40,479 bases of DNA, from positions 1-40,479 of the forward strand of contig JABMPJ010000132.1 in the NCBI GenBank assembly GCA_013203785.1. The letters run 5' to 3'. Source of the DNA: Lentisphaerota bacterium. Its GTDB lineage: Bacteria > Verrucomicrobiota > Kiritimatiellia > UBA8416 > JABMPJ01. A program made the position numbers and the translations under genes. Of the stretch, positions 5,901 through 33,593 are shown piece by piece (position 1 is the first letter of the stretch; the number at the start of each line of letters is the position of its first letter). The notes beneath the pieces are model-generated. The model ran no database searches. It was not told the DNA's origin and saw only the letters and a list, made by a program, of their open reading frames with translations.

Positions 5901-7531
5901 AGCTGCCGGGGCATAAGGTGAACGAAGAGATTGCCCGCGTGCGCCACTCCACGCCCGGCGTGACGTTGATCTCACCCCCGCCCCACCATGACATCTACTC
6001 GATCGAAGATATTGCCCAGCTGATCTACGATCTAAAATGCACCAACTTGGACGCGCGCGTCTCGGTCAAACTGGTCTCCGAGGTCGGCGTTGGAACGATC
6101 GCCGCTGGCGTGGCCAAGGCGCATGCCGACATGATCCTGATCAGCGGGTACGACGGCGGCACCGGTGCCTCGCCCCTCTCCTCAATCAAGCACGCTGGTA
6201 TGCCCTGGGAGCTGGGCCTCTCCGAGACCCAGCAAACCCTCGTCCTGAACGGCCTGCGCAGCCGCGTGCGGCTCCAGACCGATGGCCAGATGCGGACCGG
6301 ACGCGATATCGTGATCGCAGCCATGCTCGGCGCCGAAGAGTACGGCTTTGCTACCAGCGCACTGGTGGTGTGCGGCTGCATTATGATGCGCAAGTGCCAC
6401 AGCAATACCTGCCCCGTCGGCGTGGCGACGCAAGATCCCGAGTTGCGCAAACTCTACACCGGCAAGCCGGAACATGTGGTGACCTACATGCGTATGCTGG
6501 CCGAGTCCGCTCGCGAGCTGATGGCCGAGCTGGGTTTCCGCACCATTGATGAGATGATCGGCCGCTCCGACTGCCTTGAGATGAATGAAGCTATCGACTT
6601 CTGGAAAGCGCGCGGGATTGACTACTCCCGCATTCTGCATCGGCCCGAGGCCCCCAACAGCGAGGTGCGCTGCACCATCCAGCAGGACCATGGGGTTGAG
6701 GGTGCCCTCGATCTGGAGTTGATGCCCCGCCTGAAGGAAGCGATTGAGAAGAAGATGCCGATCCACATCAAGCTGCCCATTCGTAACGTTAACCGAACGG
6801 TCGGCACGATCATTTCCGGCAAGATTGCCAAGCGCTACGGTGACGCCGGCCTGCCCGAGGACACGATCACGCTGGAGTTTAAGGGCGCGGCAGGCCAAAG
6901 CTTCGGGGCCTTCTGCTGCAAAGGCATGACCCTGATTCTGGAGGGCGAGGCCAACGACTACCTTGGTAAGGGCCTCTCCGGCGCACGCATTATCGTGAAG
7001 CCGGAGCCCGACTGCGGATTCATACCCGCCGACAACATTATTGCCGGCAACGTCCTCTTGTACGGCGCCACCAGCGGCGAGATCTATGTCAACGGCCAGG
7101 TCGGCGAGCGGTTTGCCATTCGCAACAGTGGTGCCCACGCTGTGGTCGAGGGGGTTGGCGACCACGCCTGCGAGTACATGACCGGTGGACGGGTGGTTAT
7201 TCTAGGACGTACCGGCGTTAACTTCGGGGCCGGCATGAGCGGCGGCATCGCCTACGTCCTAGATGAAGACGGCATGTTTGATAACAACTGCAACTTGGAC
7301 ATGATTGACCTCGAGCGCGTGGAGTTTGAGGCCGATATTGCCGAGCTTTATGGCCTGATCGAAGGCCACGTCACTCATACCGGCAGCGCTCTGGGCTGCA
7401 AGATCCTGGAGGAGTGGGAGCACTACAAACGGCAATTTGTTAAGGTCTTTCCAACGGAGTATCGCCGCGTGCTCGGCCAGATGATGCAGGATGACGAGGC
7501 CACTGAACGGGAAGAGAAGGTGTTTGAGTAA
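2963..7531 (+). CDS. gltB: Glutamate synthase (NADPH) large subunit
   Basis: Alpha subunit of glutamate synthase. It splits glutamine and passes the ammonia through an internal tunnel to 2-oxoglutarate, giving two glutamates. At 1522 residues it is full length. The order is a class II glutaminase domain (about 31-430) whose nucleophile should be Cys31 after removal of a 30-residue propeptide (context EHDACGVGF), then the central domain, the FMN-binding synthase domain (about 830-1200, with GGTGASP), and the C-terminal beta-helix GXGXG domain (about 1270-1470). The 3Fe-4S cysteines fit C1139-x5-C1145-x4-C1150. The stop codon TAA shares its last base with the ATG of gltD, which implies translational coupling. 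Confidence 0.97.
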   Translation: MEEDGGQIHQRWGRFAAKQGLYSPEYEHDACGVGFLANVNGKPTHAIIERGIEVLKNLLHRGATGADTSTGDGAGLLFQLPDKFFRRMAPSLMSDPLPPAGAYGVGMFFLPRDEKLRVACCRLVEETVESEGLTFLAWREVPTDGSVLGEQARVDEPSVMQSFIGSDTLRDDDLERKLYVVRRLIEKRVEAEYPSDRMFYVPSFSCRTIVYKGLMMATQVPGYYADLGQPDVESAVAVVHQRYSTNTFPSWPLAQPFRTLAHNGEINTLRGNLNGMRSRERNMTSDVFGDDMPKVIPVIQPGGSDSAALDNTLELLVRGGRSIDHALMMLVPQAWGSKYPMGPNLRGFFEYHAGIMEPWDGPAALAFTDGRFVGALLDRNGLRPARYTLTKDGFFVFASEAGVLDLPAADTIERGALRPGQMLMIDLEHGHIQKDAEVKTQLARRQPYRRWVEENHLLIHGLFNDMNAIEPDRKTLLTRQRLFGYTREDRTIILGDMAMKGKEPVGSMGSDQPLAVLSEKPQLLYWYFKQLFAQITNPAIDSIREELVMSLTTFMGTTDRILTETPRHARLVKLRHPILSDDDLERVRSLKQPDFEALTIQIGFPAGGNGTALKAALEQICSLAENAVIRNHVRFIVLSDRDLPEEMTPMPALLAVSAVNQHLVRLGARTPMSIILETGEAREVMHMALLLGYGASAINPYLALEIVADMVLRNELDKPLSVPRGMENYVNALCVGLLKVMSKMGISTLRSYRSAQVFEAVGLNGPLVNTYFPGTASRIEGIGLDEIASEANARYNTAHPTSGYEDNLLPSGGMYKYRNDGERHLWSPDAIALLQRAAREENYDYFKEYSHLINDQEKQQITLRGLLKFKTGTPIPLEDVEPASDIMKRFVSGAMSFGSISREAHETLAIAMNRIGGKSNSGEGGEDPARFEPLPNGDSRCSAIKQVASGRFGVTSGYLASAKELQIKIAQGAKPGEGGQLPGHKVNEEIARVRHSTPGVTLISPPPHHDIYSIEDIAQLIYDLKCTNLDARVSVKLVSEVGVGTIAAGVAKAHADMILISGYDGGTGASPLSSIKHAGMPWELGLSETQQTLVLNGLRSRVRLQTDGQMRTGRDIVIAAMLGAEEYGFATSALVVCGCIMMRKCHSNTCPVGVATQDPELRKLYTGKPEHVVTYMRMLAESARELMAELGFRTIDEMIGRSDCLEMNEAIDFWKARGIDYSRILHRPEAPNSEVRCTIQQDHGVEGALDLELMPRLKEAIEKKMPIHIKLPIRNVNRTVGTIISGKIAKRYGDAGLPEDTITLEFKGAAGQSFGAFCCKGMTLILEGEANDYLGKGLSGARIIVKPEPDCGFIPADNIIAGNVLLYGATSGEIYVNGQVGERFAIRNSGAHAVVEGVGDHACEYMTGGRVVILGRTGVNFGAGMSGGIAYVLDEDGMFDNNCNLDMIDLERVEFEADIAELYGLIEGHVTHTGSALGCKILEEWEHYKRQFVKVFPTEYRRVLGQMMQDDEATEREEKVFE

Positions 7532-8976
7532 TGGGAAAAGAACGCGGATTTATGGAGCATGAGCGGCTCGACCCCGGCTATAGGCCCATCGAGGAACGCG
7601 TCGAGGACTACGGGGCCGTCGAACGTCAGCTTACGGATAAGCAGCTCGTGGTGCAGGCCACACGCTGTATGGACTGTGGTGTGCCTTTTTGCTGCACCAC
7701 GGGCTGTCCGCTCGCCAACGTGATTCCAGAGTTCAATGATTTGGTCTACCAAGAGCGCTGGCCCGAGGCGCTTGACATGCTGCTCCTGACCAATCCTTTC
7801 CCCGAATTTACCGGCCGGATTTGCCCCGCGCCCTGCGAGACCTCTTGTGTCCTGGGGATCAACAAGGAACCCGTCGCCATCCGGCAGATTGAGGTCTCGA
7901 TCGTTGAGAATGCCTTCCGCCGCGGTGTCTTGAAAGCCAATCCCCCGCCCCAGCGACATGAGGCCCGCATCGCCGTGGTCGGTTCCGGTCCGGCCGGCCT
8001 GGGTGTAGCCGACGTCCTCAACCGGTACGGCTACAACGTCGTCGTCTACGAGAAGAATAGGAACCCGGGCGGGTTGCTGCGCTACGGCATTCCGGATTTC
8101 AAGCTAGAGAAATGGGTGGTCGAGCGGCGCATCCAGCTCATGCAGGATGAAGGCGTGGTTTTTGAAACCGGTGTCGAGATCGGGCGCGACCTCTCCTCAC
8201 ATTACTTGCGCGACCGGTTCGATGCAATCGTTCTCACCGGCGGGGCCGAACAGCCGCGTGATCTGCCTATCCCCGGCCGCGATCTGAAGGGCATTCACTT
8301 CGCAATGGATTTTCTGACCCAGCAGAACCAGCGTAACGGAGGTGAGACCGTCACCCAGACCGAGATCAGCGCCAAGGGTAAACATGTGGTCGTCATCGGC
8401 GGTGGTGACACCGGGTCCGACTGTGTCGGCACATCCAACCGGCAGGGTGCCCTGAGTGTGACCCAGTTGGAGATCATGCCCGAACCGGCTGGCGAGCGTC
8501 CGCCCGAGACCCCGTGGCCGCTCTGGCCCGCCAGTCGCCGTGACTCCAGCAGCCACCGCGAAGGCTGTGAACGGCGCTGGTCCGTACAGACCGAATTCTT
8601 TGAAGGCACCGACGACCACGTCAGTCAGCTCAAATGCTGCGAGGTCGAATGGGTCACTCCCAAGGATGGCGGCCGCCCGTCGCCGAGAAAGGTCAAAGGC
8701 TCCGATTTTCTCCTTCCGGCCGATCTTGTGCTGCTCTCGATGGGCTTCGTAGGCCCGGGACCCAACCGACTGGTGGATGACTTGGAATTGAAGCTCGATC
8801 CGCGCGGCATGATCCAGCGTGACGCTGACCACAAAACCAGCCACCCCCGCGTCTTCGTGGCCGGTGACATGACCCACGGTGCCAGCCTAGTCGTACGCGC
8901 CATCAACGACGGATGCGAAACCGCCCGGAGCGTGGTCCAGTGGCTCGAATCGAAAGAGGCCCAACCCACGACTTGA
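7531..8976 (+). CDS. gltD: Glutamate synthase (NADPH) small subunit
   Basis: Beta subunit of glutamate synthase. It oxidises NADPH and sends electrons through FAD and 4Fe-4S clusters to the large subunit. It has 481 residues, the usual length. Cluster-binding cysteines sit near the N-terminus (C46, C49, C54/C55, C59, then a second group in RICPAPCETSC). The FAD-binding Rossmann motif GSGPAG begins near residue 151, and the NADPH-binding motif GGGDTG lies near 290. The start codon overlaps the gltB stop by one base. The stop codon lies inside the -35 box proposed for the following tRNA promoter. Confidence 0.96.
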   Translation: MGKERGFMEHERLDPGYRPIEERVEDYGAVERQLTDKQLVVQATRCMDCGVPFCCTTGCPLANVIPEFNDLVYQERWPEALDMLLLTNPFPEFTGRICPAPCETSCVLGINKEPVAIRQIEVSIVENAFRRGVLKANPPPQRHEARIAVVGSGPAGLGVADVLNRYGYNVVVYEKNRNPGGLLRYGIPDFKLEKWVVERRIQLMQDEGVVFETGVEIGRDLSSHYLRDRFDAIVLTGGAEQPRDLPIPGRDLKGIHFAMDFLTQQNQRNGGETVTQTEISAKGKHVVVIGGGDTGSDCVGTSNRQGALSVTQLEIMPEPAGERPPETPWPLWPASRRDSSSHREGCERRWSVQTEFFEGTDDHVSQLKCCEVEWVTPKDGGRPSPRKVKGSDFLLPADLVLLSMGFVGPGPNRLVDDLELKLDPRGMIQRDADHKTSHPRVFVAGDMTHGASLVVRAINDGCETARSVVQWLESKEAQPTT

Positions 8977-9564: not shown

Positions 9565-10644
9565 CTACTTGGCATCAAACGTAGCACCTTCTGAGCGCGC
9601 CAACGTTTGGGACGCAGGAACGATCAGGTGGCCCGTGACTTCGACACATCGTCGCTTCCATGGACGACTGGTTTCGCGCTGGGCCTGAAGTCGGCGCAGG
9701 GCCTGACGCGCCATGCCGCCAAACGGCTGGCGATAGGTAGGAATGCCCGCGCCCACGGCTTCGTCCAGTCCGTCAATACCGTAGACCTGCCATGATGTGC
9801 CCAGCATCGACTTGACTCGTAAAGCCAGCGTATCATTCACGCATAGCACGGCACGCGTGCCGCGACGCGCGACGGGAAACCACTCGTGCCGTGCAGCGGC
9901 CAAGACCTCCACTGTATTGCCCTTCCAGGGGACACGAACGATCTGGTGGGTCAGCCCTCCATCGCGGCAGGTCTCGGTGAAGGCCTGCTCGCGAAGCCGG
10001 TCGCTGTCGGCATTCAGGCCCGCGTGGCTGACAAAGATAAAATCGGTGAATCCAGACTGACGGGCGTGGGTCATCAGCGTGGTGATAGCGTCGCGGTTGT
10101 CCATGCCGACAAAGTCAACCCGCGGTCCGGGCAGCATGCGGTCGATAAAGACGACATTGACCCCCAGGACCCGCACCCGTTCAAACAGGTCGCTAGCCGT
10201 CGAGGCCCCCCCCGGCCAGACCACAAAATTAGCGATTCCTTCGCGCACCAGATGCGCCGCCGCGTGGCGTTCGCGCTCGACGTCGCCGTCGGTCAGCTTC
10301 AGGATCAGGAACGCGCCGATCCGCGTCAGCGCGGCCTCGAGCGACTGCACGAATTCCTGGGCGAAGGGGTCACGCACGGCGCTTAGCAGGGCGACATATT
10401 TGATCGGATTGGGGTTGCCGCGGACCTGATCGGAGACGCGCGTCCCGCTGCCCTGCACGCGCTTCAGCACGCCGCGATGTTCGAGTTCGGCATAGGCCCG
10501 TCGGACCGTGACGCGACTGGTACCACTGCGTTCAGCCAGCTCGCGCTCGGGGGGCAACACATCGCCGGGCGCGTAATGTCCGTCGAGAATGGCGGCGAAA
10601 ATATCATCGCACAGGCGCTGTGTTCGTGATGGGGTCGCGGTCAT
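9565..10644 (-). CDS. GntR-family regulator with LacI-type sugar-sensing domain
   Basis: Transcription regulator of 359 residues. The N-terminal winged helix-turn-helix of the GntR family covers about 8-76 (LPPERELAERSGTSRVTVRRA is the recognition region). It is fused to a periplasmic-binding-protein-like sensor (about 85-345), as in AraR of Bacillus. Such proteins usually repress catabolic genes until a sugar binds. It follows the kinase-HAD gene by 30 bases on the same strand, so the two form an operon and the regulator probably controls that operon. It ends 25 bases from the convergent GIY-YIG gene. Confidence 0.9.
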   Translation of the reverse strand: MTATPSRTQRLCDDIFAAILDGHYAPGDVLPPERELAERSGTSRVTVRRAYAELEHRGVLKRVQGSGTRVSDQVRGNPNPIKYVALLSAVRDPFAQEFVQSLEAALTRIGAFLILKLTDGDVERERHAAAHLVREGIANFVVWPGGASTASDLFERVRVLGVNVVFIDRMLPGPRVDFVGMDNRDAITTLMTHARQSGFTDFIFVSHAGLNADSDRLREQAFTETCRDGGLTHQIVRVPWKGNTVEVLAAARHEWFPVARRGTRAVLCVNDTLALRVKSMLGTSWQVYGIDGLDEAVGAGIPTYRQPFGGMARQALRRLQAQRETSRPWKRRCVEVTGHLIVPASQTLARSEGATFDAK

Positions 10645-22660: not shown

Positions 22661-23518
22661 ATGGCGCAGCATGAACGAGTTTCGGATGGCGATCGCCACT
22701 GGCGGGAGTTTGAGGACATCGACATTCTGTCGATGTTACACGTGCATCTTCTCTGTGCCTATCGCATGACGCTGGGGCCGGAATGGTCTCGTCGCGACGT
22801 GCTCGACGCCAAGAACCGCCTCTACTATGTTCTGGATGGAGGCGGTGAGATGATCTGCGGAGGCCAGAAGACGGCTCTGTTACCCGGCCACCTCTACCTT
22901 ATTCCTTCCGGAGCGCGACGCACCTACGGTTGCGAGAGGCGTCTTGAACTTTACTGGAGTCATTTCACGATGCGACTGCATTCCGGGCGGGACGTTTTTG
23001 AGGGGGCTGACAACGCCCTGGAACTCCAGCCCACAAATCCGGCCAAGGTTGCCCGTCAATTCAAGGAGATGGCAGCTAGTTTTGAAGACAACGCCGCCGC
23101 AACGGTTTTGTCACGCTCGGGGATTCTGATGCAGCTCGTGGCGCCATTTCTCAATGCCGTCGACCCGCTCGACCTACAGCGTCGCCTTTCTGCGATGCTG
23201 CCTTTCCAGTCCCTGCTGACTGAGATAGAGGCACACTGCCATGCGCCGGTTGATATCCCTCGCCTGGCAGCGAGCATAGGCATGAGCGCCTCGCACTTCA
23301 CCCGACGCTTTACCGAAGCCCTGGGTGTCTCCCCCGGTCGCTACATCCTGCGACGTCGAATCGAGGAGGCACAGCTTCGGCTGGTGCAGGGCGATGAGAA
23401 GCTCGAAACGATTGGCATCGCACTCGGCTTCTGCGACGGGTTCCATTTCTCCCGTACCTTCAAGAAGCTGACCGGTATCTCCCCCAGTCACTATCGCGCC
23501 ATGGTGAGGCAGCCGTAG
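22661..23518 (+). CDS. AraC-family transcriptional regulator
   Basis: A 285-residue regulator. The N-terminal sensor has a cupin-like strand set (RLYYVLDGGGEMICGG, LLPGHLYLIPSGARR). The C-terminal AraC DNA-binding domain covers about 190-283, with DIPRLAASIGMSASHFTRRF as the first helix-turn-helix and LETIGIALGFCDGFHFSRTF as the second. The ATG at 22661 has no clear Shine-Dalgarno sequence, so the start is uncertain by a few codons. It is divergent from the URO-D-like/sulfatase unit. The Gfo/Idh gene follows 180 bases downstream. Confidence 0.9.
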   Translation: MAQHERVSDGDRHWREFEDIDILSMLHVHLLCAYRMTLGPEWSRRDVLDAKNRLYYVLDGGGEMICGGQKTALLPGHLYLIPSGARRTYGCERRLELYWSHFTMRLHSGRDVFEGADNALELQPTNPAKVARQFKEMAASFEDNAAATVLSRSGILMQLVAPFLNAVDPLDLQRRLSAMLPFQSLLTEIEAHCHAPVDIPRLAASIGMSASHFTRRFTEALGVSPGRYILRRRIEEAQLRLVQGDEKLETIGIALGFCDGFHFSRTFKKLTGISPSHYRAMVRQP

Positions 23519-24892: not shown

Positions 24893-24911
24893 TGACTGAG
24901 TCAATATAGTG
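24893..24911 (-). promoter_or_regulatory. Operator site 1 (TGACTCAGTCA)
   Basis: Read on the minus strand, 24903-24893 is TGACTCAGTCA. Together with its upstream flank it gives CACTATATTGACTCAGTCA, which matches 17 of 19 bases of the site overlapping the GntR-gene promoter at 30962-30980. The core is a dyad of TGACT and AGTCA around one base. It lies about 215 bases upstream of the DUF4838 gene. Confidence 0.6.
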
Positions 24912-24974
24912 AATATCGCGCCTATACATGGGTTGTACCTGAATATATTGAATTAAATATGTTGTATTTAGATA

Positions 24975-25003
24975 TTGTTATGACTCAGTTGTTTTGGAAT
25001 AAT
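24975..25003 (+). promoter_or_regulatory. Promoter of the DUF4838 operon with operator site 2 in the spacer
   Basis: TTGTTA (24975-24980), a 17-base spacer and AATAAT (24998-25003) form a plausible sigma-70-type promoter. The spacer begins with TGACTCAGTTG (24981-24991), a copy of the repeated element. A bound repressor would exclude RNA polymerase. Confidence 0.55.
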
Positions 25004-25115
25004 ACGGACTCTGCTGGAGAAGAGTGGGGTTTGGATCTGTCTGGTGTTGATAGAGCGATCTTAACTTGTTCGTGCCCATCAAGTTGGTAGAGAATGACCG
25101 AAAGGTGGAGAAGCT

Positions 25116-27479
25116 ATGCTCACTTTGACAAGAGCAAACTACATCCTGCGGATGTTCGTAGTGGGGCTTGGCATGTCTATAGCGGTGCAGGCCAGGAGTG
25201 ATGATGCGCTGGTGCTCGTGCGAGACGGGCAACCATCGGCAACGATTGTGGTGTCAGAGAACCCGCGATGCGGCGTAACCTTGGCTGTCGCGGAGCTTGA
25301 GACCTATGTCGAGAAGATGACCGGCGTACGGTTGCCGGTGGTGAGCGATTCTGCGTCGGTGCAGGGCCTGCGCGTCTTGATTGGCGAGTCGGCCGCGACA
25401 CGTGCCCTCGGATACAGCAACGCGACGTTTGAGGCAGAGGAGTACTGCGTCAGGGTCAGCGACGACACCCTCATGATTCTTGGGCATGACCAGGACATCT
25501 ATGGCGAGATCTCGTATGAAGCGGACGGTGTCTACCCCGGGTTTGAGTGGTACCACGAGATGGGCACGTTGTGGGGCGTATTCGATTTTCTCGAGCGGGC
25601 TTGCGGCGTGAGGTGGTACTTCCCCGGTGAGCTGGGGCTTGTGGCACCTCGGCAGGCCACCTTACGTGTGGGCCACATCGACCGGCAACGGCGGCCCTGG
25701 GCGCGTCATCGCTGGGTGGTGCCGCGCCCCTTTCCCAAGTCGCTCTACTGGTATGAGGGTCTCGATCCGGTTACCGTGGCTGATCTAGCCGACCGACCCA
25801 CAGCCAACCTCTGGTGGCTGCATTTGCGCGTGCGCAGTGAGCCGGTCTCATTTAGCCACGCCTATAGCGCGGCCCTTGAGGAGTGGCGAGAGACGCACCC
25901 TGAGTATCTGGCGCAAGGCTACGACCTCGACAAGGTGCACTACATGCAGCCGGCTTTTCACAAACCAGAGGTGCTGAAAGCGGTGGCCGACATGGCCATT
26001 GCGCATTTCGATAAACCGCTGGAGGAGCGGTACACAGAGCGCATGTGGGTGGCGAGCCCGGAGTTTTTCGGGATCTCCCCCATGGACAACAATAACTGGT
26101 GCAAGAGCCCTGAAGCGCGTGCCCAGTTCCCCAGTGAGCCCCCCGACCGCTACTGGTGTGGCTATGCCAGTCACCACGTCTGGGACTTCGTCAACGGCGT
26201 GGCGCGCCTCGTGGCCGTTAAGCACCCGGACAAGTGGATGGGCTGCTTTGCCTATGCGAAGTACCAGGAGCCCTATGAGGGAATGACCCTTGAGCCGAAC
26301 GTAGCGGTTCAACTCTGCCGTCCCCTCTCGCGCTACTGGCATCCGGCATTGATGAATCAGCACGAGCGGACGCTGGAGCAATGGGTCAAGCTCAAGCCGC
26401 AGCGCCTCTACCTGTTCGACTACTTTCTTTTTCCGCAGCACCGGCATCAGAACCTGTTTCCAGGCTGGTTCCCTCGCCTGGTAGGGTCCGATATGGCGCG
26501 CATGAAGCGCATCGGGCTACGTGGCGCCTACAACGATATTTCCTGTAGCGCTATCGCTGGTCGCCAGTGGCGAGACAAAGAGTGGGTGCCCCACTTCTGG
26601 GTCAACCCGATGCTGGACCACATTAATCTCTATATCTGGTTCAAGTATCTGGATGATCAGTCCGAAGATGTCGACACCCTTCTGGACGAGATGTGCGACA
26701 CGCTTTACGGCCCGGCAGGGCCCTCTATCCATGAGTTCATCGATCGTGTGGAGCGGATTGCCTCCTGCTGGCCCAACTATGCGCGCACCCTGCACAACGT
26801 GGCCCATCTCAACGGCGAAGACTCATGGCAACACCTCTGCCCTCCCGCGCGACTCAAGGAGTTTGGCGAGCTCATGGCCTCGGCCCACGCGGCCGCAGAG
26901 ACCACGGAGCAGAAGGCGCGTGTCGCCCTGTTTGATGCGGGCGTGTTTCAGATGATGCAAAAATCGTCAGACACGTGGCATGCCGCAAACCACGTCCTCA
27001 CCCCCGAGAACTCGCGGCCTCTCGCACGCGACTGGAAGCTCAGACTTGACCCCGAGAAAAGGGGTGAAGCTGCAGCGTGGTTCCTACCCGATCTTGACGA
27101 TGCTGACTGGTCCACGGCGTCGACCCACACGACCCTGGAGAAGCAGGGCCACGAGAACTATAAGCACGCGTGGTACCGAACCCGCATCACGGTTCCCGAG
27201 GAATGGCAGGGCCGCGTGATTCAGATCAAGCTGGGCGCCGTTGACGAGAGTTTCAAACTGTGGGTCAACGGAGCCATGGCCGCTGAGTTCACGTTTGATC
27301 CTGTCGATCCCCGGAGCTGGGACCGCCCCATGTGGTTCGATATTTCGAAGTACATGAAGGCAGGTGAGGACGGCCAGATCGCGCTACTGGTCGAAAACCT
27401 GTCGGGTCAAGGCGGACTGTGGAAACCTTCCCATATTGTGGCCGACCCGATCCAGCTTCGAGACAAGGGCGAGTTCTAG
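25116..27479 (+). CDS. Secreted DUF4838-family glycoside hydrolase-like protein
   Basis: A 787-residue exported protein. The signal peptide occupies about 1-27 (hydrophobic core FVVGLGMSIAVQA). It is followed by a small alpha/beta domain typical of alpha-glucuronidase-like enzymes (about 45-120, LAVAELETYVEKMTGVRLPVV), then the DUF4838 barrel region (about 140-560, with VRWYFPGELGLVAP and FAYAKYQEPYEGMTLEP). The C-terminal galactose-binding-like beta-sandwich covers about 645-780 (WYRTRITVPEEWQGR, FKLWVNGAMAAEF). DUF4838 proteins are common in polysaccharide loci of PVC and Bacteroidetes bacteria, but their reaction is not well defined. GGAG 5 bases before the ATG supports the start. The GH29 remnant follows 58 bases later, so they share an operon. 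Confidence 0.85.
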   Translation: MLTLTRANYILRMFVVGLGMSIAVQARSDDALVLVRDGQPSATIVVSENPRCGVTLAVAELETYVEKMTGVRLPVVSDSASVQGLRVLIGESAATRALGYSNATFEAEEYCVRVSDDTLMILGHDQDIYGEISYEADGVYPGFEWYHEMGTLWGVFDFLERACGVRWYFPGELGLVAPRQATLRVGHIDRQRRPWARHRWVVPRPFPKSLYWYEGLDPVTVADLADRPTANLWWLHLRVRSEPVSFSHAYSAALEEWRETHPEYLAQGYDLDKVHYMQPAFHKPEVLKAVADMAIAHFDKPLEERYTERMWVASPEFFGISPMDNNNWCKSPEARAQFPSEPPDRYWCGYASHHVWDFVNGVARLVAVKHPDKWMGCFAYAKYQEPYEGMTLEPNVAVQLCRPLSRYWHPALMNQHERTLEQWVKLKPQRLYLFDYFLFPQHRHQNLFPGWFPRLVGSDMARMKRIGLRGAYNDISCSAIAGRQWRDKEWVPHFWVNPMLDHINLYIWFKYLDDQSEDVDTLLDEMCDTLYGPAGPSIHEFIDRVERIASCWPNYARTLHNVAHLNGEDSWQHLCPPARLKEFGELMASAHAAAETTEQKARVALFDAGVFQMMQKSSDTWHAANHVLTPENSRPLARDWKLRLDPEKRGEAAAWFLPDLDDADWSTASTHTTLEKQGHENYKHAWYRTRITVPEEWQGRVIQIKLGAVDESFKLWVNGAMAAEFTFDPVDPRSWDRPMWFDISKYMKAGEDGQIALLVENLSGQGGLWKPSHIVADPIQLRDKGEF

Positions 27480-27537
27480 CCATAGGCCGCGATCATGTGC
27501 GCCTTGTGCTCCCATCCAGATATGAAGGGCTAGAGCC

Positions 27538-28101
27538 GTGAAGAGTGAAAACAAGGAACGCCTATCCAGAGAGCAGTTGCAGGCATGGGAGCAGTTCGGA
27601 TACGGCATGTTTATCCACTTCGGAATGAGCACCTATTTAGGCGAGGTATGGGTGGATATCCCTGCGATTCTGACCCGTGACTATAAGAACAGGCTCTACA
27701 GTGACATCAGAAAGTGGCAGCCAGAAACGGCTATAGTGATGAACCATGGCATTGGTAACGGTTCCGAACTCAACATTGATAAAGCCTGGCCGACGGACAT
27801 TATCACAATCGAACGGTTTCTGCCTGACAGCATGGCCTATCATCAGAAAGTCAGAACCATCGAAGGCCATGAATACTATCTACCGGGAGAAGTATGCGAC
27901 CCAATCGGCAAAGACTGGTTCTACACCCCGGACGATCAGCTACGCAGCGACGCGGAGCTGCTGGGCATGTACCTGGTGACCAGGGCGCGCGGCGCTAATC
28001 TGCTCCTTGATGTTCCACCGGATAAGCACGGTCTATTGCCAATCCCCACGGTCGACAGCCTCATGAGGCTCCGAAAACAGATCGACTCTGTGGGGGGGTG
28101 A
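27538..28101 (+). CDS. GH29 alpha-L-fucosidase remnant with in-frame internal loss
   Basis: Only 187 residues against about 400-450 for GH29 alpha-L-fucosidases. The N-terminus has the family opening YGMFIHFGMSTY (about 22-33). Residues from EVWVDIP onward match the second half, including the aspartate of VWVD, which corresponds to the region of the family nucleophile, then QPETAIVMNHG, AWPTDIITIERFLP and the normal C-terminal NLLLDVPPDKHG segment. The roughly 150 residues between them, most of the barrel, are absent although the frame is kept. The breakpoint is near 27634-27648. Activity is not expected. GTG start with GAAGGG 8 bases upstream. Its stop lies one base from the stop of the convergent exported-protein gene. 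Confidence 0.85.
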   Translation: MKSENKERLSREQLQAWEQFGYGMFIHFGMSTYLGEVWVDIPAILTRDYKNRLYSDIRKWQPETAIVMNHGIGNGSELNIDKAWPTDIITIERFLPDSMAYHQKVRTIEGHEYYLPGEVCDPIGKDWFYTPDDQLRSDAELLGMYLVTRARGANLLLDVPPDKHGLLPIPTVDSLMRLRKQIDSVGG

Positions 28102-28102
28102 T

Positions 28103-29488
28103 TCACTGTATGGTTATCATGGTACCCCTGGGCTCACGACCCACAGCAATGAAGCCAGCCAGGCTGCTGTAGGGGCCGCCAGCGATCCGCTTGGTTCCGG
28201 GATCAACCGTCGCCGCCAACTCGACCCACTGGGTTCCGTTGTACTGCCAGAGCTTGAGGTCCTCCTCATCCAGACCAATGGCCGCCAGAGCCGCATCATC
28301 ATACCGGACCCACAAGTGGCCCGCGCTGCCGCTGACCCCATCCAGGCTCCAGACGCCTGCCGAAACGATGCCGGGCGGGACAAGGGCGTGATCGGCGGCA
28401 TAGAGCACTCCTGTTAGAATGCCGCTGCCAGCCGTAAAGAGCATTTTCAGGCTATTTACAAGGAAGGGTCCGGCTTCTTCGCCCCAGTAGTAGGTATTCC
28501 CGCTGCTGACGGGGAACGATGGCAAGAGCAGTCGGCCGTGGTTCTGCGCAAACCAGCCGTGGTCGGTGGTGTTGTCGGAGAGGCCTGTGGTGCCGGAGAA
28601 GGTCGAAAGGTCCAGATCGCGATCCGTGCCGTAGCCGTCTGCCTCAACACGTCCGCTGTTCTGCAGGTTGCCGGTCAGAGCGATCGTTCCCCATCCGCGC
28701 AGCAATCTTTCCTGGGTGGAGCTATAGCCGAGCTCCAAGGCTATGCCCGCGCCACTCTCTTCCACGATGGTGCCCGTGCCGTTGGTGTCTCCGATGTTGA
28801 GGACGCTCACAGGCTTAAGGTCTACGCCCATCACAAAACTGCATCCATTGGAAAGTACGACCGAGCCTCCCGTCAGGTTGTAGGTCCCTGCGGAGCTGAC
28901 GTCACTATAGGCCCCGATCTCGAAGACGTCCTTCACGTGGACGCTGCCACCGCTCTGGGATACGAACCCATGCCCGAAGATGCCCAGCTCCAACTCGTCG
29001 ATAAGCAGTTGTCCGCTCACCATGTTGTAGGCGGCGGGGCTCACCAAGGCTCGGCCAATGTCGAGATTGTGCACCGTAACGGTGCCGCCGTACTGATTGA
29101 ACGTGCCAGGAGCGAGAGAGGCGATGAACATGTAGTTGACGGCCTGGAGGCTGCCGCTCTGCATATTGATCGTTCCTTCGCCTCCAGAGGCTGATCCAAG
29201 GCTCAGATTATTGCAGATGGCGCCGAGCTCAGTGATCTCGGCAATGGCGTTGGTGGCGCGGGCGGGCTGGCTCACATTCGGAGCGCCCAGATAAGCGGTG
29301 TCCGCAGCCGTGGGCTGCACGCCAATCCAATTGGCATTGTTGGTCCAATTTCCCGACGACGGCGCTTCAGTGGTCCAGTACAAATTTGCCGCGTCGGCGT
29401 GGGCAGCATCAAGGAACAACGCCAAAGCAAACACGAGCGCGATATGCTGCGAAGTCCTGCCTGACGTCTGTCTGTAGTGGTGTCGCAT
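28103..29488 (-). CDS. Exported beta-repeat protein (autotransporter-repeat-like)
   Basis: A 461-residue protein of unknown function. An N-terminal signal peptide (about 1-33, IALVFALALFLDAAHADA) precedes a W-rich opening, TNNANWIGVQ, typical of secreted repeat proteins in PVC bacteria. From about 90 to 260 run imperfect repeats of roughly 30-35 residues with glycine-rich turns (FNQYGGTVTVHNLDIG, YNMVSGQLLIDELELG, YNLTGGSVVLSN), as in autotransporter-associated beta strands. The C-terminal ~120 residues form a separate domain (HLWVRYDDAAL, LKLWQYNGTQWVEL). No PEP-CTERM or anchor motif is seen. The ATG at 29488 has GGGAG 6 bases upstream, while the ATG at 29512 has none. It may bind or present polysaccharide at the surface. 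Confidence 0.75.
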   Translation of the reverse strand: MRHHYRQTSGRTSQHIALVFALALFLDAAHADAANLYWTTEAPSSGNWTNNANWIGVQPTAADTAYLGAPNVSQPARATNAIAEITELGAICNNLSLGSASGGEGTINMQSGSLQAVNYMFIASLAPGTFNQYGGTVTVHNLDIGRALVSPAAYNMVSGQLLIDELELGIFGHGFVSQSGGSVHVKDVFEIGAYSDVSSAGTYNLTGGSVVLSNGCSFVMGVDLKPVSVLNIGDTNGTGTIVEESGAGIALELGYSSTQERLLRGWGTIALTGNLQNSGRVEADGYGTDRDLDLSTFSGTTGLSDNTTDHGWFAQNHGRLLLPSFPVSSGNTYYWGEEAGPFLVNSLKMLFTAGSGILTGVLYAADHALVPPGIVSAGVWSLDGVSGSAGHLWVRYDDAALAAIGLDEEDLKLWQYNGTQWVELAATVDPGTKRIAGGPYSSLAGFIAVGREPRGTMITIQ

Positions 29489-29559
29489 CGTCTTCTCCCT
29501 ATCCAGTTTCATGGCTTGGAATCGTAGCGCCTATCGCGCAGCGGGAATTCTACCATCTA

Positions 29560-29580
29560 GTCACCTTGGTGACCCAGTTA
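29560..29580. promoter_or_regulatory. Dyad GTCACCTTGGTGAC overlapping operator site 3
   Basis: GTCACC-TT-GGTGAC (29560-29573) is a perfect 6-2-6 inverted repeat. It overlaps TGACCCAGTTA (29570-29580), a copy of the repeated element that continues AACAAT, much like the site at 30972-30962 (TGACCCAGTCAACAAAT on the minus strand). Both lie just downstream of the predicted transcription start of the exported-protein gene. Confidence 0.55.
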
Positions 29581-29600
29581 ACAATTTCAAACATATCGTC

Positions 29601-29629
29601 ATAATATCCATGTAAAGAAGGTATGTCAA
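29601..29629 (-). promoter_or_regulatory. Sigma-70-type promoter of the exported-protein gene
   Basis: On the minus strand, TTGACA (29629-29624), a 17-base spacer and TATTAT (29606-29601) give a perfect -35 and a 5-of-6 -10. Transcription should begin near 29594, about 106 bases before the ATG at 29488. Confidence 0.65.
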
Positions 29630-29663
29630 ACATATAAAAGCCTACTGGTGCATATATATTGAA

Positions 29664-29681
29664 GAATGACTCATTCATATA
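29664..29681 (+). promoter_or_regulatory. Operator site 5 in a perfect palindrome
   Basis: GAATGA-C-TCATTC (29664-29676) is an exact 6-1-6 dyad. TGACTCATTCATATA (29667-29681) differs by one base from TGACTCAGTCATATA at site 1 (minus strand, 24903-24889). It lies upstream of the -35 box of the exported-protein gene. Confidence 0.5.
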
Positions 29682-29816
29682 AAGACGTCAGGCGAGCGGG
29701 CCCAGCCTCCATGATTACAGTGTCATCCGGAGACGACAAGCCGCGCGCACCGACACCCCAACCCACAGGGCGAGGTGTCTTGTTTGGTCGGCGTCGCTCG
29801 GTGCGGGTTGCTATGT

Positions 29817-30872
29817 CTACGCTCGGCGCGAGCGCGCGAGCGCGGCAACGGTATCGCCTGAATAGAGCTCCACGGGAAGCATCTCCTGGATGGGCGCGGT
29901 GGCTTTACCCTCTATGAGATCAATCAGCAGGTCCATGGCTCGGAAGCTCAACTCCTGAGGGTGCTGATCGATGGACGTCAGGCGGCTTTCCGAAAACTCG
30001 TCGAGTCGGCCGTACCCCGTGACGGACATGTCGCGGGGGATGGACAGGCCTCGCTCCTTCAGGGCCGCAATGGCCAGCATGGCATTCTGGTCTCGATCGA
30101 AAGCAATGGCGGTGATCTCCGGGGATACCTTGCAAGCTCTGTCCATGCAAGCGGCAATGTGCGTGTCGTCGACCTGCACGGGGAACAGGTGATCTTCCGG
30201 GTTCTCGATTCCGGCTTCGCGCAGTGCATCAATGAATCCCATGGCACGCTGTCCTGCCAGAGTGTCCTTGAGATGAGTTGCCGGGGCAAACACCGGATTC
30301 GTGTGCCCCATCTCGCAAAGATGGCGGCCTATCAGATAGCCGCCGTGCCGATTATCCGAGATGACCCAGTTCCGCTTGGCTCTATCTTCGCTGCGAGGCA
30401 GCGTATCGACAAACATCACGGGGAATGGTAGGTCCGGGGGAGGAAAGTTTCCAAATGTGATCAGCCCGTCGATTCCTGAATCACACACCATTTGCCAGAA
30501 ATGGTCTTCCTCTTCGCGGGGTGACGGGTGGATGTATTCCGTCCGATAGTGGCGGACAAATGCTGCCCGTTGTCCGCCTCTAAGCAGATGAGGCTGGAAT
30601 GAGATGTTTTGAAGCGCGATCACGAAGGCAATGGTGCCGATCGGGTAATCGGTCGTCTTAGCGACAATGGTTCCAGCACCGCCTCGACAGCGCTTTAGGA
30701 AGCCGCGGTCGACCAGGCGGGCGACGGCCTTGTTGGCCGTCGTCTTGTTGACGCTGAACATTTCGGCCAGCTCGTATTCCGACTGAATCTTTTGGCCACG
30801 CTTCAGATCACCATGACGGAGTTGACCCATGAAATACTCAATGATCTGGTCGCCCTTGGTCGTCCTGCTCAT
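29817..30872 (-). CDS. GntR-family regulator with LacI-type sugar-sensing domain
   Basis: A 351-residue regulator with the same architecture as the one at 9565-10644 but clearly divergent from it. The GntR winged helix-turn-helix covers about 5-72 (IQSEYELAEMFSVNKTTANKAV), and the sugar-binding sensor about 85-340 (DGLITFGNFPPPDLPFPVMFVDT, SVTGYGRLDEFSESRLTSID). ATG at 30872 with AGGG 8 bases upstream is preferred over the TTG at 30896. The gene is divergent from the GH95-like gene. The repeated element TGACYCAKTYR occurs at its own promoter and in front of the DUF4838 and exported-protein genes, so it is the likely regulator of this unit. Confidence 0.9.
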   Translation of the reverse strand: MSRTTKGDQIIEYFMGQLRHGDLKRGQKIQSEYELAEMFSVNKTTANKAVARLVDRGFLKRCRGGAGTIVAKTTDYPIGTIAFVIALQNISFQPHLLRGGQRAAFVRHYRTEYIHPSPREEEDHFWQMVCDSGIDGLITFGNFPPPDLPFPVMFVDTLPRSEDRAKRNWVISDNRHGGYLIGRHLCEMGHTNPVFAPATHLKDTLAGQRAMGFIDALREAGIENPEDHLFPVQVDDTHIAACMDRACKVSPEITAIAFDRDQNAMLAIAALKERGLSIPRDMSVTGYGRLDEFSESRLTSIDQHPQELSFRAMDLLIDLIEGKATAPIQEMLPVELYSGDTVAALARSRRA

Positions 30873-30961
30873 AGATATGGCCCTGCCTGGTATCAAATAC
30901 GTGGCTGAGTTTACGGAACAGGGCGACGGAAGGCAACAGCATTCCCTTCACTCGGATTTGT

Positions 30962-30980
30962 TGACTGGGTCATTATAGTG
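30962..30980 (-). promoter_or_regulatory. GntR gene -10 box with adjoining operator site 4
   Basis: The minus strand reads CACTATAATGACCCAGTCA. TATAAT (30977-30972) is a perfect -10 box, and TGACCCAGTCA (30972-30962) overlaps its last base and extends toward the transcription start. No good -35 is present (AATTTG at 17 bases). The layout fits autorepression. Confidence 0.5.
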
Positions 30981-31002: not shown

Positions 31003-31031
31003 TTGATGATGGGCATTCATAAGTCTATATT
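31003..31031 (+). promoter_or_regulatory. Sigma-70-type promoter of the GH95-like gene
   Basis: TTGATG (31003-31008), a 17-base spacer and TATATT (31026-31031) form a reasonable promoter 34 bases before the first ATG. The operator at 30962-30972 lies about 30 bases upstream of the -35 box. Confidence 0.5.
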
Positions 31032-31064: not shown

Positions 31065-33593
31065 ATGCTGGAAGAGAAGTGGATGATGGAGAATGGAGCC
31101 GCATTGCCGGGTGGGGATCGTCAAGGTACCGGTGTCCTGCACGAGGGGCATTGGCTTTCGCAGCCTGCGCTCAACTGGCAGGACGGTCATGTGCTGGGCA
31201 ATGGCGATGTGGGCGCTGTGGTGTGGGGCTCGGCTGAGCGGGTCAGCATCGGCATCTCCAAGCACGATGTGTGTGATCTGAGGACGGACACTGAGCATGG
31301 TACGCGCTGGTCCCGGACCTACCCCGAAATTCGTGAACGGGTCCTCAAGGGGGAGCGCGAATTTCTTTACGAGCAGGTCGAAAAGACCCGCGAAGCGGTC
31401 GACCGCCTCGGATACGGCTACAGGAAGACCGATTCGCGACAGATTCCATTGCCGTGCGGAAGGCTGTGCCTGGACGTGTTGCGTAGTCTCCCTGCGAAGT
31501 CGTTTAGGCAGGGACTATTGTTTGAGGATGGCGAATGCGTTGTTCAAATCGTGCCCACACACAATGGCAAGTCATGGATTCCCGAGCACGTCATCACGCT
31601 TCGCCTGTTTGTGCATGCCGAAACCAACGTGGTGTTCGTGGCGCTCTCTTCGCCGGCGCAAAGGCGCATCGGCTGGCTGCTTGATAGAGACGTCGATAAT
31701 GATCGCCCGGCGCCATCCTACCGTATCGATCAGCAAGAGGGCGCGGGTAATGCCTGCGTGCTGGCAGATCCCGTGCGCGGTGGGATTGGGTACGCGCTGG
31801 CTTTGACGGCGAGAGCGACGGAGTGGGATGCAGCGGCCTGTCCGCACGGCATCATGGGAACCCTGACCTTTGGCGGGGAGGCGGGAGATGCCGTCTTTGC
31901 GTTGGGGGTTGCTTCGGCCATTGATGCCGGGGAGGCACGGGCGGCGGATGCTCTGGCGCTTGAGCTCAGCGAGCAGGCTTCGCGTGCCGATATCGGGCAG
32001 CTATCCACATCGCACCACGCATGGTGGCGGAATTTCTGGGCCCAATCGTCGGTAGCTTACGGTGTGGGTGATTTTGAGACGATGTGGACGATGGGGCTGT
32101 ACGCATTGGGGTCCGCCACCCGGCCGGACACGTCCCCGCCACATTTGCAGGGCATATGGAGTTTGAATGACCGGCCGGCATGGCACTCTGACTTTCATTT
32201 CAACACCAACATCCAGGAGTGCCACTGGTTGGCGGGAGGGGCCAATCATCCCGAGCTTCAGGCGGCACTGGTGCGCAAACTCGTCCACGACTGGCGTGAC
32301 GAACTGCGTCGCTATGCGCGTGAGCAATTCGGGGCGTCCGGCTTGGCCGTGCCCGTCAACGTCGACCGGCTGGGGCGGGCCATCACGGGCTGGCCATTGG
32401 CGGGCGAGTTGTCACTGACGGCGTGGACCGCCCAACATGTGTGGTGGCAGTGGTTGTACACGGGGGATCGTGACCTGCTCCATGAGGATATCTATCCCTT
32501 CCTGAGGGAGTGCTGCGACTTCTATCTGGATGTGATGGTGCGGGACGACCGGGGCATCTACAACATTGAGGTCTCTCACTCTCCGGAGCAGTACACCGCA
32601 GAGCATCACCAGCGAGCACCGCATGGCGTGCTGGGACGCAATCCCACGATCGATATTGCGGCCATTCGCTATCTATTCAACGCCACGGTGGAGGCGGCGG
32701 GCTGTCTGGATATTGACGATTCATCGGTCGCAACCTGTCGAGAGGTTCTGTCGCATCTGCCTGAGATTCCTACCCAGGACGGGATTCTCATCGATATGGA
32801 ACGCGCCCTCTTGCCTGAAGATGATGTGCCGGGCTATTTTCCCCACTGTCATCGGCACCCCAGCCGTCTCATGCCCATCTTCCCCTTTGGGGAGATTGGA
32901 CTACACAGCGGCCCTGAGATGTTGGCGTTGGGGCGGCGCTCCTTTGCCGAGTTCAGGCAGTACGCCTATGCGGGCCGAGAGTCTCACTTCATTGAGCATG
33001 GTTTCACCGGGTGGTCGCTGTCATTCCAAGCCTGTATTGCCGCGAGGCTGGGGTTGGCGGAGGAGGCCGAAGCCTGTCTCCGGGAGCTATTCGACTACTA
33101 CACGCTGAACGGCCTGCTGACCAGCTGCGACAGTCTGATGCGGGGCAAGGGAAACTACAGAAGGCATGGCGGAAACACGGGCGGTGCCGTGTTTCAGCTT
33201 GATGCTCTTCTCGGAGCTGGCGCCGCGCTCACGGAGATGCTGGCACACAAAGCAGGGGACACCATCTACCTGTTTGCCGGTGTTCCGGCGACACGTTCGG
33301 CCAGCTTCAAGGATCTGCGTTTGCCGGGCGGTGTGATGGTGAGCGCCGAGTGCGGACCCTATGGCGTCACGTGGGTACGCGTGCGGGTCGAGCATCCGTC
33401 TGAGATCATACTGGCCAATCCCTGGCCCGGCGACAAGGCGACCGTCATGGGGAACCTCTCTGATGAGGCCCGCCCCCGAAGCGGTGAGACGCTCATGTGG
33501 CACGCTGAGCCGGGCACGATCTATTGCTGCGAACGTTACCATCCGCCCAAAGGCCAACGTCTGACACCGGCGGAGTGCTGTGCGGCCCTATAG
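31065..33593 (+). CDS. GH95-like glycoside hydrolase (alpha-L-fucosidase/galactosidase type)
   Basis: An 842-residue protein related at distance to GH95. The order is an N-terminal beta-domain (about 20-270), a helical linker, the (alpha/alpha)6 toroid (about 330-730) and a short C-terminal beta-domain. LQGIWSLNDRPAWHSDFHF leads into N380-T-N382, matching the paired asparagines of the family active site. E508 in SHSPEQ corresponds to the general acid glutamate. TGWSLSFQACIAARLG matches the conserved helix following. No signal peptide is visible, so it may act inside the cell on imported oligosaccharides. The start may be ATG 31065, or 31083, which has GGAAG 9 bases upstream. It probably removes alpha-fucose or alpha-galactose, but the exact sugar is unknown. 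Confidence 0.82.
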   Translation: MLEEKWMMENGAALPGGDRQGTGVLHEGHWLSQPALNWQDGHVLGNGDVGAVVWGSAERVSIGISKHDVCDLRTDTEHGTRWSRTYPEIRERVLKGEREFLYEQVEKTREAVDRLGYGYRKTDSRQIPLPCGRLCLDVLRSLPAKSFRQGLLFEDGECVVQIVPTHNGKSWIPEHVITLRLFVHAETNVVFVALSSPAQRRIGWLLDRDVDNDRPAPSYRIDQQEGAGNACVLADPVRGGIGYALALTARATEWDAAACPHGIMGTLTFGGEAGDAVFALGVASAIDAGEARAADALALELSEQASRADIGQLSTSHHAWWRNFWAQSSVAYGVGDFETMWTMGLYALGSATRPDTSPPHLQGIWSLNDRPAWHSDFHFNTNIQECHWLAGGANHPELQAALVRKLVHDWRDELRRYAREQFGASGLAVPVNVDRLGRAITGWPLAGELSLTAWTAQHVWWQWLYTGDRDLLHEDIYPFLRECCDFYLDVMVRDDRGIYNIEVSHSPEQYTAEHHQRAPHGVLGRNPTIDIAAIRYLFNATVEAAGCLDIDDSSVATCREVLSHLPEIPTQDGILIDMERALLPEDDVPGYFPHCHRHPSRLMPIFPFGEIGLHSGPEMLALGRRSFAEFRQYAYAGRESHFIEHGFTGWSLSFQACIAARLGLAEEAEACLRELFDYYTLNGLLTSCDSLMRGKGNYRRHGGNTGGAVFQLDALLGAGAALTEMLAHKAGDTIYLFAGVPATRSASFKDLRLPGGVMVSAECGPYGVTWVRVRVEHPSEIILANPWPGDKATVMGNLSDEARPRSGETLMWHAEPGTIYCCERYHPPKGQRLTPAECCAAL

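Follow-up and report, generated by a model that had tools for sequence, protein, structure and literature searches.

The regulatory systems closest to the one described here are AraR of Bacillus subtilis, which governs the arabinose regulon, and GalR of the Escherichia coli gal operon. The combination of a GntR-type winged helix with a LacI-type domain characterises the AraR subfamily within the GntR regulators (PMC4494728). The FadR, HutC and YtrA subfamilies generally use operators of the form GT-Nx-AC and carry C-terminal domains of other folds than that of the regulator discussed below, and in the solved complexes of the GntR family an Arg-G interaction is the main base contact (PMC4494728). 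AraR possesses R41 and R45 within its recognition helix, and its paired palindromic operators, which must be in phase, form a small DNA loop (PMC4218819). The GalR operators are located 113 bp apart and enclose the gal promoters, with repression being best at full helical turns (PMC4693257). Our search of a partial collection of papers returned no literature on operators of the type described here in Lentisphaerae.

The regulator, its homologs and the predicted targets

The gene at 29817..30872 (minus strand) of the window, by which we mean the whole analysed stretch of 40,479 nt, encodes an AraR-like hybrid regulator. It is composed of an N-terminal GntR winged helix-turn-helix (residues 9-65; PF00392, E 1.2e-7), which matched the AraR DNA-binding domain 4egy (E 1e-5), and a C-terminal LacI/GalR-type periplasmic-binding sensor domain (PF13377, E 1.3e-21; PF00532, E 1.5e-15), with the AraR sensor 3tb6 among the matches. 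Comparison with GntR-type structures showed that in its recognition helix (VNKTTANKAV) Lys43 and Asn47 occupy the positions of the two usual arginines. No close relative of the protein was found elsewhere in its own genome. Scanning of contigs for homologs gave no matches with a single-protein query and did give matches with an alignment query. Of 388 genomes sampled from the phylum, 16, counting that of the window, contain homologs with 27-39% identity; according to their names the genomes found with the alignment query are mostly Lentisphaerae and Victivallales MAGs, and a homolog from the same order as the window genome occurs in one other genome. The recognition helix of the homologs follows the pattern (N/D)KxTAN(K/S/R)AV.

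The predicted targets encode a DUF4838 protein with a GH2-type sugar-binding domain (25116..27479, plus strand), a short GH29-like (alpha-L-fucosidase) protein that is predicted to be co-transcribed (27538..28101, plus strand), an exported repeat-type protein of 469 amino acids for which no Pfam or NCBIfam match was found (28103..29512, minus strand) and a GH95-like glycosidase (31065..33593, plus strand). The second of these had been annotated initially as a fucosidase: its N- and C-terminal parts are GH29-like, but the polypeptide is only 187 amino acids long and the middle section is absent. The product may lack activity or may be another kind of protein. For the GH95-like gene, an in-frame ATG at 31083 may be the actual start codon, as a better ribosome site is present there (GGAAGAG precedes it). 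In Lentisphaeria, the divergently oriented neighbours of the regulator genes often encode a DUF1559/N-methyl pseudopilin and a large glycosidase-like protein (GH10-, GH42-, GH123-, GHL6- or CBM9-type). The theme of the targets is polysaccharide use, with no single sugar indicated and nothing that points to fucose or galactose in particular, and no arabinose genes were recognised in the window. A conserved fucosidase link, considered by way of the homologous locus L097, was rejected since the two proteins are not alike.

Probable operators in the window and in other genomes

The element TGACYCAKTYR had been reported initially at five positions around the regulator gene, and all five were recovered as exact matches at the same coordinates and on the same strands. 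The element is a palindrome, TGACY-N-RGTCA, and the window contains 7 exact matches to TGACYCAKTYR versus 0.22 expected from shuffled sequences. In addition, we found a sixth site just before the GH95-like gene, which was absent from the earlier five and has two mismatches to the palindrome. All six sites are intergenic and they form three pairs, located at the promoters of the DUF4838 operon (pair A), the exported-protein gene (pair B) and the divergent regulator and GH95 genes (pair C). Scores given below in bits are from a motif model that was trained on upstream regions of homologs only and never saw the window. Applied to the window, this model returned exactly these six sites as the top two of each intergenic region, the third-best positions scoring 1.8 (A), 3.7 (B, a register shift) and 0.6 bits (C).

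Pair A consists of the upstream operator A1 (24893..24903, minus strand, TGACTCAGTCA, 15.0 bits) and, 88 bp away, operator A2 (24981..24991, plus strand, TGACTCAGTTG, 8.5 bits), which is the weakest of the six. The predicted sigma70-type promoter of the DUF4838 operon (24975..25003, plus strand, TTGTTA-17-AATAAT, 9/12) is not enclosed by this pair and overlaps A2, an operator situated within the -35/-10 spacer. Position 25062 was considered as a seventh site but was dropped because it reached only 1.8 bits. Pair B, with a spacing of 97 bp, comprises B1 (29570..29580, plus strand, 11.3 bits) and B2 (29667..29677, plus strand, 13.3 bits), and encloses the predicted promoter of the exported-protein gene (29601..29629, minus strand, TTGACA-17-TATTAT, 11/12), the best of the region. 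Pair C, spaced by 90 bp, is formed by C1 (30962..30972, minus strand, TGACCCAGTCA, 14.4 bits) and the newly found C2 (31052..31062, plus strand, TGAATCGGTTA, 12.9 bits). These operators enclose the predicted promoter of the GH95-like gene (31003..31031, plus strand, TTGATG-17-TATATT, 9/12), and C1 overlaps by one base with the -10 box of the regulator gene as read from the sequence (TATAAT, 30977-30972, minus strand). With a start at ATG 31083, operator C2 would sit in an untranslated leader. Both in pair B and in pair C one operator (B1 and C2) begins 20 nt past the -10 box of the exported-protein or GH95-like gene, and the same distance recurs in the 90-bp class of Lentisphaeria loci. In the latter loci the enclosed promoter is directed away from the regulator. 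The initial annotation had placed sites in the spacer of the DUF4838 promoter, at the start region of the exported-protein gene and against the -10 box of the regulator gene. An independent consensus promoter scan, which located the DUF4838, exported-protein and GH95-like promoters given above at places expected from the pairs, backs these promoter positions. The sequence similarity claimed for A1 and B2 was somewhat too high, as the best 19 bases share 16 positions and not 17.

The earlier description of the element as exclusively non-coding holds within the unit around the regulator but not across the window. Two exact 11-mers (8459-8469 and 8646-8656) are located 187 bp apart inside the open reading frame 7531-8976; both are probably due to chance, though two in one gene are unexpected. 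Matches at 31235 and 24579 also lie in coding DNA and were likewise treated as chance.

The same palindrome, in the form TGA-N5-TCA, is found upstream of the homologs' own genes (27-39% identity, mostly Lentisphaerae). Allowing one mismatch, it occurs in 10 regions, whereas permuted palindromes of the same composition occur in a mean of 0.6. Since the palindrome template came from the window, we also performed a template-free enumeration of every 5-base half-site with spacers of 0-8 in 38 homolog upstream regions. The top result was AGTGA-N5-TCACT, present in 18 of the 38 regions against 3.0 expected; TGACT-N1 was found in 13 of 38 against 2.6 expected. The top nine hold AAGTG-N7, TGACT-N1, TTGAC-N3, ATTGA-N5 and TGACC-N1, each of which represents this palindrome in another register. 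Fitting of the homolog-only model began from the consensus TGAMYNRKTCA, so that the half-site enumeration serves as the template-free evidence and the model as predictive evidence. Among 29 regulators with the TAN helix, 23 have an upstream site of at least 11 bits, versus 2 of the 9 others; even 10 bits is attained by only 5.5% of random segments. No pair is detectable for about half of the homologs, among them the only same-order homolog (L060) and two of those with the highest identity (L096 and L099). The sites in front of the L065 regulator gene (TGCCGGGTTA, AGCCGGTCTA) appear to have decayed or moved, while the enclosed promoter looks intact and the recognition helix is unchanged; possibly the operator is altered or autoregulation was lost. 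L115 harbors the same 89-bp pair with equal scores twice, about 5 kb apart (at -5274/-5185 and -260/-171 relative to the regulator), as though a copy of the regulatory region had been placed at a second target.

Genome-wide occurrence was scored by pattern searches. The exact 11-mer has 22 matches in the 4.0-Mb genome of the window, 15 of which are outside contig JABMPJ010000132.1, versus 14 for the reversed-pattern control, which places the rest of the genome at background. The initial annotation had named a background frequency of the element across coding DNA as evidence against the proposed regulon, and such a frequency was not what we found. A degenerate pair pattern gave 5 hits in the whole 4.0-Mb genome and 0 with the reversed control. 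Four of the five are in the unit, one of them using the spurious third partner at 25062, and the regulon thus appears to be local; except for one stray match, the paired form is confined to the unit. The single-site palindrome is near background (17 places versus 11 in the control) and single sites outside the unit were therefore not counted as regulon members. The core of the initial annotation, a single operator family that would be read by the 29817-30872 regulator and would control this gene and its neighbours, is upheld by the palindromes upstream of the homologs' own genes and by the confinement of the pairs to the unit.

Pair spacing and alternative explanations

The spacing of the pairs was compared for 39 representatives with less than 70% identity, the window included, with no limit set on spacing. 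The 20 pairs obtained are 85, 89 (three times), 90 (three), 91 (two), 99 (two), 100, 101 (three), 102 (two), 103, 108 and 111 bp apart. The clusters near 90 and 101 bp, followed by two pairs at 108 and 111 bp, are separated by steps of about one helical turn. Pair B of the window, at 97 bp, is slightly short of the 99-103 cluster. Two-fold cross-validation, repeated ten times, placed 163 of 173 held-out spacings within 84-112 bp and none at 92-98, and 43% of the regions had a pair versus 2.4% in a Markov null. Few other pairs were found within 10 kb (89, 91, 97 and 112 bp). A uniform spacing null was rejected (0/5000), which is only a guide because the relatives are not independent. The spacings do not fix the helical period, the fit being flat (0.65-0.67) over 10.1-11.9 bp; setting the phase to zero gives a turn of about 11.1 bp, similar to in vivo fits for the lac loop of 11.08 and 11.6 (PMC1762422) and about 11 (PMC8501960). 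A strict regulator-independent pair pattern, underpowered in 36 genomes, gave 4 hits (87, 99, 102 and 104 bp) versus 1 hit in each of two flanking spacing ranges, both at one spot. A pair 104 bp apart that adjoins a pseudopilin gene in L155 (G409:C222:9450-9564) was detected by a genome-wide pattern of this regulator-independent kind.

The strongest rival to looping, which we nevertheless consider rather unlikely, is that the sites are operators of this regulator at which each dimer acts alone, and that the spacing reflects back-to-back packing of two promoters. The architecture of the Lentisphaeria loci would allow this: the operator nearer to the regulator overlaps the -35 box of that gene's own promoter and the farther one is located downstream of the divergent promoter, so either could work by itself, and single-box promoters are known for AraR in B. 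subtilis as well (PMC4218819). However, pairs A and B of the window are at single promoters with no divergent gene and still keep 88 and 97 bp. Moreover, relatives differ in spacing by steps of about one helical turn and avoid intermediates, with one fully supported clade of the regulator tree holding spacings of 91, 101/102 and 111 bp; parsimony requires at least nine changes of spacing class on this tree. Far less probable is that the element belongs to another regulator, such as the AraC-type protein (22661-23518) or the first GntR/LacI hybrid (9565-10644). Both are indeed encoded in the window, but in other genomes the palindrome accompanies homologs of the 29817-30872 protein and is located at their own promoters, and the first hybrid has no operator pair that we could find nearby and possesses an ordinary SRVTVR recognition helix, for which reason it is expected to recognise another operator. 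One could suspect a degenerate 11-mer picked by eye that clusters by chance, as the consensus derives from the very sites it describes and has two more matches in coding DNA, but this is refuted in practice by the homolog-only model and the template-free enumeration, and the permuted-palindrome controls speak against it as well.

A proposed looping repressor and its relation to known systems

From the comparative data and what is known of the family, the 29817-30872 product very probably binds the six sites, and with only slightly less confidence it can be regarded as a repressor. That paired dimers close a DNA loop, which we infer from the operator spacing, is rather likely, and the occurrence of the same pairing in distant Lentisphaerae relatives suggests that the genes are switched off by a small DNA loop. 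Induction of the regulated genes by a sugar is likely as well. The best overall explanation, to which we assign a probability of about 0.78, is a repressor of which two bound dimers pair through a promoter loop, as in AraR or GalR. Each dimer of the GntR/LacI hybrid would occupy a TGA-N5-TCA palindrome. The operators would act as pairs, with spacings of 88, 97 and 90 bp, placed at a sigma70-type promoter or around it. When joined via their LacI-type domains, two dimers would hold the DNA in a loop of 8 or 9 turns and shut the promoter, and binding of a glycan-derived sugar or oligosaccharide to the LacI-type domain would open the loop. The unit controlled in this way would be local, consisting of the DUF4838/GH29-like operon, the exported protein, the GH95-like glycosidase and the regulator itself.

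More broadly, we lean towards the view that the protein represents a large undescribed branch of GntR/LacI hybrids in Lentisphaerae and their neighbours, with the new operator TGA-N5-TCA, Asn/Lys in place of the DNA-reading arginines, and pairs locked at 8, 9 or 10 helical turns that serve generally as a looping switch for clusters of secreted glycosidases and pseudopilins. If so, the natural evolution of the spacing records the helical repeat of looped DNA, and the loci form a natural comparative data set on operator phasing as a constraint on repression loops. They would further provide a readable operator code and a rule for finding regulons (paired TGA-N5-TCA, 8-10 turns) in little-studied glycan-degrading bacteria that have many such regulators. 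The Arg-to-Lys/Asn change, found together with an altered operator, is relevant to the GntR recognition code.

Similar to the GalR/HU loop, the proposed complex involves two dimers with LacI-type sensor domains, their pairing being a prediction here, and the enclosing geometry of gal fits window pairs B and C. Unlike the present regulator, GalR has a LacI-type helix-turn-helix without a GntR wing, and the gal loop spans 11 turns and needs HU. The FadR, HutC and YtrA subfamilies share a homologous DNA-binding domain. AraR resembles the window regulator in combining a GntR winged helix with a LacI-type sensor, in having carbohydrate genes as targets and in its self-regulation, which is predicted in our case, and the paired palindromes with clustered spacing correspond to the operator trait of its subfamily, in which promoters under strong repression carry palindromes that are paired and in phase. 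In contrast to AraR proper, the operator is TGA-N5-TCA instead of ATTTGTACGTACAAAT, Lys43 and Asn47 replace the arginines of the recognition helix, and pairs of the window type are 85-111 bp apart, whereas those of AraR are closer, at about 40 bp. Because looping AraR-like repressors are already known, the system is best described as a variant of these, set apart by a new operator, an altered recognition helix, phased spacing over longer distances and a large number of members.
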